A stretch of 46,762 nt of DNA from a virus: the IMG/VR virus record IMGVR_UViG_3300037247_000787, positions 1-46,762 of that record; one strand, written 5' to 3'. Of the stretch, positions 40,669-46,762 are shown one piece after another; position 1 is the stretch's first letter, and each line of letters begins with the position of its first letter. A program made the translations under genes and the position numbers. The notes under the pieces were generated by a model. That model was not told where the DNA came from. It searched no databases and saw only the letters and a program-made list of their open reading frames with translations.

Positions 40669-40693
40669 AAATTTTTAGAAAATTTTTAAGGGA

Positions 40694-40910
40694 TTCTAAG
40701 AGATTCTAAGAAATTTTATTGTATTCTAAGAGATTCTAAGAAATTTTATTGTATTCTAAGAGATTCTAAGAAATTTTATTGTATTCTAAGAGATTAGTAG
40801 TAATAAAAATAATAAATGTAACTTTTATGGATTCTAAGAGATTCTAAGAAATTTTATTGTATTCTAAGAGATTAGTAGTAATAAAAATAATAAATGTAAC
40901 TTTTTATGGA
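40694..40910 (+). repeat. AT-rich direct repeat array after the terminase gene
   Basis: A 30-bp unit starting TTCTAAGAGATTCTAAGAAA occurs at 40694-40723, 40724-40753, 40754-40783 and 40832-40861. It alternates with a longer relative that ends in AATAAATGTAAC at 40784-40831 and 40862-40910, so 40754-40831 is itself duplicated. Within units the heptamer TTCTAAG is repeated. No gene is present. Such arrays can be replication origins, packaging sites or assembly-prone spacers. Confidence 0.85.
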
Positions 40911-43684: not shown

Positions 43685-43990
43685 ATGAATAAATCAAGCG
43701 ATAAATCAAGCGATAAATCAAGCGATAAATCAAACGATAAAAACTCTGTAGCGCTCCTAGCACGTGCAACATATCGCAATCGCGTAGATTCGTGTAAGAG
43801 GAGAAACAAGCCTCACTTTCCAGAAGATGCCACACCGGCTCAAATTGTTTCAGCAACGCGGTTTTGCTCTCGCTACAACGAGTATGTAGACTGGAGCGCC
43901 GTTAACAGCTTTGGTGACGACGGTTGGATAGGAATCCAGACGTGGGGAACGTTCGCGGTCATTTCACCAGACGGAGGTATTAGTTCCTAA
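43685..43990 (+). CDS. hypothetical protein with SSDK repeats, paralogue of the previous gene
   Basis: A 101-residue protein. It starts with four units of a 12-bp repeat (AAA TCA AGC GAT, 43691-43738), giving KSSDKSSDKSSDKSNDK, a flexible charged tail whose length could vary by slippage in steps of four residues without changing frame. The rest is the same domain as at 43374. Ribosome binding site AAAGGAGGA. Role unknown. Confidence 0.7.
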   Translation: MNKSSDKSSDKSSDKSNDKNSVALLARATYRNRVDSCKRRNKPHFPEDATPAQIVSATRFCSRYNEYVDWSAVNSFGDDGWIGIQTWGTFAVISPDGGISS

Positions 43991-44081
43991 AAGTTCGGCC
44001 TTGTGTTAGCTCCAAAGTATTCGGTACCTCAGCAAAGAATAAAAGAAATTAGTTTAAAATCCTTCTCTAAAGCCGAATACG

Positions 44082-44090
44082 TGTTATAAT
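44082..44090 (+). promoter_or_regulatory. extended -10 promoter
   Basis: TGTTATAAT at 44082-44090 is a perfect TGnTATAAT. No good -35 is present, which extended -10 promoters tolerate. The start would be near 44097, so the transcript carries the hammerhead about 170 bases from its 5' end. Confidence 0.65.
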
Positions 44091-44269
44091 GGTTTCAACG
44101 TTAGACAACAAAGGAGAGATCATGGTAAACGGTAGCGACGTTATCCTACCGTAAAACACCAACTGAAATGAGGAAATGTAGAACAGACACCAAGAGACTA
44201 CAATAGCCACACTGGGAGAGAAATCATGCTAAACGGGTAACGCCGTAAAAATATTATCTAGTTTATCAC

Positions 44270-44362
44270 TTATAACCCGCTGATGAGTTCTAACCTTTAG
44301 GTTCGGATGCCGTAGGCATTCAAATAGGACGAAACCGCCAGAAGATGGCGGTCCGGGTATAA
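44270..44362 (+). ncRNA. hammerhead ribozyme, type I, with branched stem II
   Basis: The core is complete: CTGATGA at 44280-44286, GAAA at 44332-44335 and the cleavage triplet GTC at 44351-44353. Stem I is CCCG/CGGG extended by TTATA/TATAA past one bulged A; both ends of the motif are here, so it is type I. Stem III is CCGCCA/TGGCGG with loop GAAGA. Stem II (GTTCT/AGGAC) encloses 34 bases that can form two further hairpins, AACC/GGTT and GGATGCC/GGCATTC. Self-cleavage would leave a 5'-OH RNA starting at 44354, 66 bases before the gene at 44420. Confidence 0.93.
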
Positions 44363-44390
44363 CCTCTTAAACATTTACTTAAGGAGTATC

Positions 44391-44423
44391 ATGAGTTATA
44401 AAATGCGACTATTGAAAGAGTGA
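44391..44423 (+). CDS. 10-residue leader peptide
   Basis: ATG 44391, after a good AAGGAGTATC ribosome binding site, opens MSYKMRLLKE and ends at TGA 44421-44423, which overlaps the GTG start of the next gene. Translation of this peptide probably feeds ribosomes to that gene, which has no good site of its own. Confidence 0.5.
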   Translation: MSYKMRLLKE

Positions 44424-44917
44424 TTAACCCATGGGACTCTAAACTTGAGATTGCCATACAAGAAAAAGATCTAGAGACATTGTTAGATATGGTCGGACGC
44501 CCATATCCTCATAATCTAGAGACTAAAAAAAGCTTCACCCGGTTGACTGGTGTTTATCTACACAGAACTAAAAAGGAATCAATCCGAAGAATACTTAAAT
44601 TCACGGGGAAAACGTCCATTGATGTAGCAATACTAAATGAAAAAAAGCGCCTTGCTTTTGAGGCTGAAAATAAGATAATCAGTGACAAGGTTGACATTGA
44701 AAAAGCGGAAAATGAGTTAGTTTGTGTTGATGGCGATAAAGTGGTGTCAAGTAAAGTATTCATTGACACGGCTATTAAACGTGGATATGTGCATCTAAAA
44801 CAATTCCACGTTTACTATTATTTGCAATGTGCCGCCCACCGAGGAAACAGAGAAGGCTACCGTCTCAGTAAAAAACAAAGGCAGTACGCGAAAATTGTTC
44901 TAACTACACTTAGCTAG
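44420..44917 (+). CDS. hypothetical protein
   Basis: A 165-residue protein from GTG 44420 (MINPWDSKLEIAIQEKDLET...), coupled to the leader peptide by a stop-start overlap. It is mostly helical and basic. A middle element (RRILKFTGKTSIDVAILNEK) and a Tyr-rich part near the end (GYVHLKQFHVYYYLQCAAHR) stand out, and the C-terminus is RLSKKQRQYAKIVLTTLS. No family recognised. It is the first normal gene on the RNA released by the ribozyme upstream. Confidence 0.6.
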   Translation: MINPWDSKLEIAIQEKDLETLLDMVGRPYPHNLETKKSFTRLTGVYLHRTKKESIRRILKFTGKTSIDVAILNEKKRLAFEAENKIISDKVDIEKAENELVCVDGDKVVSSKVFIDTAIKRGYVHLKQFHVYYYLQCAAHRGNREGYRLSKKQRQYAKIVLTTLS

Positions 44918-44974
44918 GGTTACGAAACCGCCAGTATCAAGAAATTAGGAACAACCAGCCATAGGAGAAACATC

Positions 44975-45289
44975 ATGGGTTTCGCACATATTACAAACTT
45001 CCATCCCGCCGGAATTCGTCTGTTTGATGACGATGAGGATTTTATTGTTGAAAAAGAAGGGTTCGAACGTCTCCTGATCATGATCAAAGATCGTGCTAAT
45101 ACGGTTGAAGGGATTGCCGAAACTCTTGATCCTGATGATGTGGATTGGCAGGCTATTCAAGAAGAGCTACCTTTGATTACACAGATGGCGGAGAGATATG
45201 CAAACGAAGGTTACTTTGATGATGCGGGAAGCCATTTGCGGTGGGCGTGTAGGGTGGTGAGCGATGTGGATAATCAAGTCAGCCTGTGA
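44975..45289 (+). CDS. acidic hypothetical protein
   Basis: A 104-residue strongly acidic protein (MGFAHITNFHPAGIRLFDDD...). Ribosome binding site ATAGGAGAAACATC. The composition (DPDDVDW, IQEELPLITQMAERY) and helical pattern resemble DNA-mimic or regulator proteins, but this is not enough to name a function. It lies between the two hammerhead ribozymes. Confidence 0.65.
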   Translation: MGFAHITNFHPAGIRLFDDDEDFIVEKEGFERLLIMIKDRANTVEGIAETLDPDDVDWQAIQEELPLITQMAERYANEGYFDDAGSHLRWACRVVSDVDNQVSL

Positions 45290-45328
45290 AATTCAATATT
45301 ACCGCTCGCACATAAGGAGCCAATATAA

Positions 45329-45580
45329 ATGCAATTCTTTGATGTCTTAGTAACCGCAGTTGCTCTGTAGTTACTGTTAACCATATCCACCGTTAAGCAC
45401 ACAAGAAAAAAGATGTCAGGTAGCTTGACTCGTAGGGGCTCAGATCCAGCCAGTACCCATCATTTTTTACTGATTAGAGAGGAGATATGCACATTGCGAG
45501 CGGAAGTATGTAATTCCCTTGTAGCGGGTGGAGACTCTCGCAACATGAAGGACCAAAAGGCGAATTGTTTGATAACTTGA
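45329..45580 (+). pseudogene. small membrane protein gene interrupted by an amber codon
   Basis: After AAGGAG, ATG 45329 opens MQFFDVLVTAVAL and meets TAG at 45368-45370. The same frame then stays open for 69 more codons (LLLTISTVKHTRKKMSGSLT...) to TGA 45578-45580. Read through, residues 1-20 form a membrane segment followed by basic residues, a normal signal-anchor layout, so the TAG looks like a CAG-to-TAG mutation. Suppression by a host amber suppressor is also possible. It overlaps the next gene. Confidence 0.55.
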
Positions 45581-45951
45581 CGAAAAGCATAGAACTCTTT
45601 GAGGAATACTACTTTAAAAATCCAGCTGCAGGATTTTCCACTAACCATAAGGTGGAGTGCATGGAGATTATAGCAAGAAGGCTAACATCGTTAAATTGGA
45701 AACTAAACAAAGTTCTTGATGATCTTAACCAGCGTAGAAACGAGTACAGCTATGCCTCAAAACTTAATTTCCGTAACTCTTTGATAGAGTTGAAACGCCA
45801 TGCAAAGGCAATTGAGGCAGGTTTAAAGGTTAACGGGTTTAGTAGAAGAGAAAGAAAGTTAACCTTTATAAGATTAAGCAGTGACATCGAAGCCACATAT
45901 AAAGGCGTTAGTTTTGCGCTTAATGAGCTTTCACGATCAAAGAACAACTAA
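45565..45951 (+). CDS. helical hypothetical protein
   Basis: A 128-residue protein from TTG 45565, with AAAGG four bases upstream; an ATG at 45660 would give a shorter form. Long helices (HKVECMEIIARRLTSLNWKL, FRNSLIELKRHAKAIEAGLK) dominate, with many basic residues. No membrane segment. Unknown family. Part of the gene set between the two ribozymes. Confidence 0.6.
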   Translation: MFDNLTKSIELFEEYYFKNPAAGFSTNHKVECMEIIARRLTSLNWKLNKVLDDLNQRRNEYSYASKLNFRNSLIELKRHAKAIEAGLKVNGFSRRERKLTFIRLSSDIEATYKGVSFALNELSRSKNN

Positions 45952-45969
45952 CAATTAAGGAGAAATACC

Positions 45970-46191
45970 ATGGAAATGGATAAAACTAAATATTTAACCA
46001 AGGATCTCATCAAGAGCTTGAAAGGGCACTGGTTCATAACCATTAAGGGCACGGAAACACACCTAAGAATTTCAAGAGCTGAATTGATCTACGTGTTGCG
46101 TTGTCAACCCAAAAAGTCGGTGATGTTCGTAACCCTCGGGAGTACGACCAACCATTTTGTAGAGGTTGATCCGTTCAAGAGAGCCATTTGA
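45970..46191 (+). CDS. small hypothetical protein
   Basis: A 73-residue protein (MEMDKTKYLTKDLIKSLKGH...) with ribosome binding site TTAAGGAGAAATACC. Strand-rich middle (HWFITIKGTETHLRISRAEL) and C-terminal SVMFVTLGSTTNHFVEVDPF. It is the last gene before the second hammerhead ribozyme, whose cleavage site lies about 100 bases downstream. Function unknown. Confidence 0.65.
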   Translation: MEMDKTKYLTKDLIKSLKGHWFITIKGTETHLRISRAELIYVLRCQPKKSVMFVTLGSTTNHFVEVDPFKRAI

Positions 46192-46241
46192 AGGAAAACA
46201 TCAAGAAAGCCGTGCGAGGCCAATCTCTTGTAGCAAGTTTA

Positions 46242-46297
46242 TAACCCGCTGATGAGTCTGAATAGACGAAACCGCCAGAAGATGGCGGTCCGGGATT
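46242..46297 (+). ncRNA. hammerhead ribozyme, type I, compact form
   Basis: CTGATGA at 46249-46255, stem II GTCT/AGAC with loop GAAT, GAAA at 46268-46271, stem III CCGCCA/TGGCGG with loop GAAGA, and GTC at 46288-46290. Stem I is CCCG (46245-46248) with CGGG (46291-46294) and carries both ends, so type I. Core, stem I and stem III are identical to the copy at 44270; only stem II differs. Cleavage after C46290 would remove everything upstream from the mRNA of the pentapeptide gene. Confidence 0.94.
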
Positions 46298-46323
46298 TTC
46301 CACTAACCACCAACAGAGGAGTA

Positions 46324-46353
46324 ATGGTAAACGTAGCAAAAGGCTTAGTTTAG
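46324..46353 (+). CDS. 9-residue leader peptide
   Basis: ATG 46324 after AGAGGAGTA opens MVNVAKGLV and ends at TAG 46351-46353. Its first bases (ATGGTAAACG) equal those of the mini-ORF at 44122, which also accompanies a hammerhead. It is either a leader peptide of the pentapeptide gene or a gene remnant. Confidence 0.4.
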   Translation: MVNVAKGLV

Positions 46354-46380
46354 TTTAGTTCACAGAATTAAGGAGAGATA
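46349..46380 (+). repeat. 32-bp leader repeat with ribosome binding site, copy 2
   Basis: Matches 185-216 at 31 of 32 bases. Here it supplies AGGAGAGATACC before GTG 46383. Together the copies flank the pentapeptide-repeat gene as direct repeats on the circular map. Confidence 0.85.
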
Positions 46381-46382
46381 CC

Positions 46383-46762
46383 GTGCAAATAATCAACCGT
46401 AAAACTGGTGAAGTGATTTTTGAGGCCCAAGCTGACACAATTAAGCAATTGTTGGAGATGGCGGTATCAAAAAGTATCGATTTGGAGGGGGCTGATTTGG
46501 AGTATGCTGATTTGAGTGGTGCTAATTTGAGTGATGCTAATTTGGAGGGTGCTGATTTGGAGTATGCTAATTTGAGTGGTGCTAATTTGAGTGATGCTAA
46601 TTTGGAGTATGCTAATTTGAGTGGTGCTAATTTGAGTGATGCTAATTTGGAGGGTGCTGATTTGGAGGGTGCTGATTTGGAGGGTGCTAATTTGAGGGGT
46701 GCTAATTTGAGTGATGCTAATTTGAGGGGTGCTAATTTGAGGGGTGCTAATTTGAGGGGGTG
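46383..46762 (+). CDS. pentapeptide-repeat protein (5' part, continues at base 128)
   Basis: GTG 46383 opens [20 protein letters not shown], a short cap, then [13 protein letters not shown] and at least 18 pentapeptides of the form (L)xxA(N/D): [25 protein letters not shown]. At the DNA level the units are 15-bp near-perfect repeats, so the tract length can change by recombination. The protein should form a right-handed quadrilateral beta-helix, a DNA-like rod; relatives such as MfpA and Qnr bind gyrase. As the sequence stands, a G-run one base too long ends it at circular position 131. Placed beside the ArdA-like gene, a DNA-mimic role is plausible. Confidence 0.8.
46636..46762. repeat. 127-bp terminal direct repeat, right copy
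   Basis: Identical to 1-127. See the left copy: most likely an assembly overlap showing that the contig is circular or circularly permuted. Confidence 0.9.

Follow-up and report, generated by a model that had tools for sequence, protein, structure and literature searches.

Prokaryotic hammerhead ribozymes are tied to phages, as set out in the 2017 and 2020 reviews by de la Pena and colleagues (PMC6155905; PMC7761336), and reports of tandem hammerheads in phages go back to 2011. Perreault et al. (2011; PMC3088659) found multiple hammerheads around single genes or short blocks of genes in prophages "on many occasions", and proposed that they process long phage transcripts. Cleavage was demonstrated for three phage hammerhead arrays in vitro and for one in E. 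coli, and in the haloarchaeal viruses HF1/HF2 a mapped early-transcript 5'-end lies no more than 3 nucleotides from the hammerhead cut (PMC3088659). Also assayed in that work was the hammerhead of Pseudomonas phage PaP3 (NC_004466, 44120–44032, minus strand, 35.3 bits), published as a core-variant hammerhead.

The window analysed here is a whole virus record of 46,762 bases, IMGVR_UViG_3300037247_000787, with genes for phage portal, capsid, DNA polymerase, ligase and terminase. The capsid and terminase share 44–59% identity with their counterparts in Edwardsiella phage KF-1 (Kafunavirus), and the same range covers Pseudoalteromonas phage PH1, Vibrio phage VPMS1, Dickeya phage Amaethon and two Manatee Spring podoviruses. 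Directly past the terminase gene, at 40682–40897, are AT-rich imperfect direct repeats (D1) of 30 and 78 nt. Like the arrays of Perreault et al. (Agrobacterium ardA array, Clostridium scindens, Azorhizobium; PMC3088659), the window has more than one hammerhead flanking single genes or small gene blocks in phage DNA, and the processing into gene-length mRNAs proposed there is proposed for the present pair as well. What sets it apart is the phage itself, flanking genes without homology to theirs, and the two-hairpin insertion that one copy carries in loop II. PaP3 resembles it in being a podophage of ~45 kb with a hammerhead among small ORFs near one genome end, whereas the PaP3 hammerhead is a single copy in an unrelated genus (Bruynoghevirus). 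With at least two hammerheads on one strand flanking small phage genes, the locus is a clustered phage array, and its arrangement is of a known kind. A sequence-only reading of the window had called such a matched pair uncommon; this is contradicted by the prophage clusters reported in 2011 (PMC3088659) and by 32 viral loci, independent of one another, that carry two to eight same-strand copies, a count obtained here by pattern scans alone. That reading was thus largely right in kind, though not new.

Our interpretation, which we consider highly probable, is that two paralogous type I hammerheads cut an early polycistronic phage transcript on their own strand. In a search over the record, both motifs fall below the gathering score of Rfam model RF00163 (34), a database cut-off and not a biological criterion, and a covariance model, R1, was therefore built from 39 viral hammerheads that pattern and structure searches had identified, the 46,762-base record being left out. 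The features are as follows.

44082–44090, + strand: extended -10-like sequence TGTTATAAT upstream of copy 1 (sequence match)
44266–44362, + strand: hammerhead copy 1, type I (R1 43.0 bits, rough E 3.3e-10; RF00163 28 bits, E 1.9e-6; MFE fold)
44280–44351, + strand: parts of copy 1, with core CUGAUGA 44280–44286, stem II 44287–44330, GAAA 44331–44334 and stem III 44335–44351
44292–44321, + strand: loop II insertion of copy 1, 30 nt (sequence, fold and RF00163 alignment, which treats it as an insert)
44354–44390, + strand: leader left by predicted cut 1, 37 nt, with Shine-Dalgarno AAGGAG at 44381–44386 (sequence)
44391–44423, + strand: micro-ORF MSYKMRLLKE, 10 codons (sequence)
44420–46191, + strand: block of genes between the ribozymes (44420–44917, 44975–45289, 45565–45951, 45970–46191)
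46235–46299, + strand: hammerhead copy 2, type I (R1 49.9 bits, rough E 2.5e-12; RF00163 24 bits, E 3.8e-5; RAGATH-1 32.5 bits)
46249–46288, + strand: parts of copy 2, with core 46249–46255, stem II GUCU-GAAU-AGAC 46256–46267, GAAA 46268–46271 and stem III 46272–46288
46291–46323, + strand: leader left by predicted cut 2, 33 nt, with Shine-Dalgarno GAGGAG at 46316–46321 (sequence)
46324–46353, + strand: micro-ORF MVNVAKGLV, 9 codons, upstream of the pentapeptide-repeat gene (sequence)
GTG at 46383 to past the contig end, + strand: pentapeptide-repeat gene (Pfam Pentapeptide E 2.6e-59)

The covariance search bore out the motif calls made from sequence. Across the whole record R1 returned nothing below E 1 beyond these two copies, the next best site having E 1.1, all R1 E-values being rough owing to a shortened calibration; the covariation in R1 is inflated because its member sequences were picked for pairing. 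A structural scan of 1.09 Mb of Markov-shuffled loci, on both strands, yielded zero such motifs. Rfam at its gathering score likewise overlooks the PaP3 hammerhead as well as the eight hammerheads of locus L139 (described below); considering this together with the R1 scores of the two copies, we did not take the RF00163 gathering score as a defining feature.

Both copies carry the conserved type I core of CUGANGA, GAAA and UH at the cut site, here an intact CTGATGA, GAAA and GTC, as had been noted from the sequence, and in the folds and the R1 alignment three helices surround the core with stem I open-ended. The MFE fold of copy 1 shows the three helices at a z of -3.2. It is very likely that these are two real, well-formed type I hammerheads. 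Copy 1 runs in the order ACCCG-CUGAUGA-(stem II)-GAAA-CCGCCAGAAGAUGGCGG-UC^CGGGU. As the earlier reading had stated, stem III and the stem I core are identical between the copies and stem II is different; the sharing of stem I holds for that core only, since its extent differs, with 5 bp in copy 1 (ACCCG/CGGGU) and four pairs in copy 2 (CCCG/CGGG), where the fifth pair is an A-A mismatch. Stem II of copy 1 reads GUUC-U(30 nt)AAAUA-GGAC, in which the insertion forms two small hairpins (AACC-UUUA-GGUU and GGAUGCC-GUA-GGCAUUC) and the surrounding loop is an ordinary U-AAAUA. A UAUAA element before stem I and an A-rich loop II, the parts between which a type I tertiary contact would form, are found in both copies, as in other viral hammerheads. 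RAGATH-1 (RF03152) likewise has UAUAA before stem I, and copy 2 has a small upstream hairpin in common with it, but both copies score under its gathering score (32.5 bits for copy 2 and 21.1 for copy 1 vs 56.3). Both hammerheads are probably active; the four-pair stem I of copy 2 or the bulky loop II insertion of copy 1 could slow cutting.

The two copies have in common an exact 19-nt repeat (44270–44288 = 46239–46257) and an exact 30-nt repeat (44328–44357 = 46265–46294) and differ almost only in stem II; hence, one copy derives from the other. A duplication would have produced the second copy, with stem II afterwards exchanged or grown. A separate exact 17-nt repeat, GGATTTTCCACTAACCA, lies at 45631–45647 within ORF 45565–45951 and at 46293–46309 across the 3'-edge of copy 2, which suggests recombination near copy 2.

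The predicted cuts, 44353/44354 in copy 1 and 46290/46291 in copy 2, agree with the cleavage positions named in the sequence-only reading, which had also placed the motifs in leaders of small genes. That placement is confirmed in that a micro-ORF of 9–10 codons, led by a Shine-Dalgarno sequence, follows 33–37 nt past each cut. The stop of the first micro-ORF and the GTG start (44420) of ORF 44420–44917, which encodes 165 aa, overlap, and from this overlap the two are likely to be translationally coupled. All genes of 43685–46762 lie on the + strand, and no terminator-like site was found on that strand between the copies. A family search with the four ORFs between the ribozymes gave no convincing match, and two of the four, when searched in phage and viral collections, had no relatives. 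As for the extended -10 promoter that had been proposed, the sequence TGTTATAAT does exist at 44082–44090, but it has no matching -35 and is absent from the promoter-scan list; promoter-like sites in that scan were fewer than in shuffles. Two repeats were seen in the same region: (i) three copies of a ribosome-binding site with micro-ORF start (D4; SD-ATGGTAAACG / ATGCTAAACG), two upstream of hammerhead copy 1 (44106–44131 and 44210–44235) and one downstream of copy 2 (46308–46333); and (ii) a tandem 12-nt repeat at 43693–43740 that opens ORF 43685–43990 and gives a KSSD repeat in the protein.

Cutting of mRNA is the most likely role of the hammerheads; catalysis, co-transcription and any effect on expression are inferred. 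Cut 1 would take the leader off the four-gene block, and cut 2 would part this block from the pentapeptide-repeat gene. The downstream product of each cut would be an mRNA bearing a 5'-hydroxyl, a short leader and a ribosome-binding site; the upstream product would be an RNA ending in ribozyme hairpins with a 2',3'-cyclic phosphate. Processing is supported by the distance of 33–37 nt between each cut and an SD-led start, and by the published phage and HF1/HF2 precedents described above. Of 223 hammerheads in viral contigs, 154 precede an SD-led ATG ORF of at least 30 aa by 150 nt or less, the median being 41.5 nt; the same was true of 140 of 669 random same-strand positions.

The motifs might instead be what an invading element left behind, decaying or inactive and retained by chance. 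The nearest relatives do lack them and the surroundings are mosaic, with the repeats D4 and D17, but relics would be expected to show core mutations, and the core and helices of both copies are intact, including the UAUAA element and the A-rich loop II; we consider this account very unlikely. Copy 1 could also be imagined as a natural ligand-controlled hammerhead with its structured, two-hairpin loop II insertion of 30 nt acting as the sensor. No relative carrying the insertion was found, and in a scan for long stem II hammerheads (22 stretches) L021 alone had a long stem II, with an extension different from that of copy 1; control by a ligand is extremely improbable.

A third possibility is raised by the shared stem I, through which the cut ends could cross-pair, so that the 1937-nt RNA between the cuts would be circularised, or spliced out so that the leader is joined to the downstream gene, either through the reverse (ligation) reaction or through a host RNA ligase. 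Indeed, the 5'-strand of copy 2 forms 5 pairs with the 3'-strand of copy 1 but 4 with its own. Ordered cross pairs in the 32 multi-copy loci reach four or more contiguous stem I pairs in 61% of cases, compared with 12% when copies were exchanged among loci (0 of 2000 shuffles as high), and in 19 of the loci all copies are cross-compatible. Identity per stem I position is 0.57–0.90 within a locus vs 0.29–0.46 between loci and falls to background within a few bases, identity just outside stem I being at background; within loci, sharing is much greater for stem I than for stems II and III. Against this, stem I is also the slowest to change between orthologous hammerheads of different phages (0.90 vs 0.50 for stem II and 0.68 for stem III, in a set of 45–70% protein identity dominated by a few families), and hence its sharing may reflect only slow change after duplication, which in our view explains much of it. 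The same orthologue control weakens shared stem I as a proof of trans-ligation. Furthermore, sharing of stem III is likewise above chance (0.37 vs 0.10), several loci, L145, L152 and L156 among them, have unrelated stem I, and Perreault et al. (2011; PMC3088659) sought spliced or circular products of phage arrays and detected none. Circularisation or splicing at the present locus is accordingly very unlikely. It is likewise highly improbable that multi-hammerhead phages in general keep one genome-specific stem I to make all cut ends interchangeable, and that they use these ends to turn transcript gene blocks into circles or to join the blocks again. In a comparison for concerted change, one orthologous hammerhead reads ACCTA in one of two phage groups and ACCAA in the other; the second copy in each follows the version of its own group, these second copies not being orthologous. 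The choice between slow change of stem I and a requirement for interchangeable ends has a bearing on the function of phage hammerheads.

Returning to the proposed mRNA processing, the distribution of the motif was examined among relatives and in viral contigs at large. None of nine related records has a hammerhead, six of these being named phage genomes searched whole and two being short contigs that end before the hammerhead region; L003, a second contig with an identical terminase, stops short of it and is uninformative. Complete genomes of the closest named relatives lack the motifs, which are therefore not essential to this phage group. A candidate in phage Amaethon (4987–5044, 14.2 bits) was rejected as a chance match, having neither GAAA nor stem III when read by eye, and a scan of genome contigs for TATAACCCGCTGATGAG gave 13 stretches with no hammerhead by R1. 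Conservation in related phages, lack of which the sequence-only reading had named among its refuting outcomes, thus fails for the nearest relatives, but the motif recurs in many unrelated phages, and absence from the former is therefore no refutation of the ribozyme. The sequenced relatives in this podophage group are without hammerheads; the window is a clear example with two copies, and a gain in this lineage is thereby favoured.

Hammerheads were common in viral contigs: a few patterns gave 223 on 164 locus-strands, 153 of them unique. Multi-copy sets of phage hammerheads prove to be common in this survey, and copies within one genome usually share stem I. Locus L139 (1341–6900, corresponding to IMGVR_UViG_3300041956_000313, 79259–84831), on a viral contig of 92.7 kb, holds eight type I hammerheads in 5.5 kb, with nearly one stem I among the copies and a varying stem III. 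It resembles the present pair in its stem I, ACCCG/CGGGU, and in that a ribosome-binding site and start codon follow most copies at a short distance; it differs in its eight copies, other stems II and III, and a loop II of the GUGAGAUU type. L139 is a better test case than the present record. At another locus, L016, hammerheads with differing stem I share a downstream GTCGAACAYA, part of the leader being kept despite the difference in stem I.
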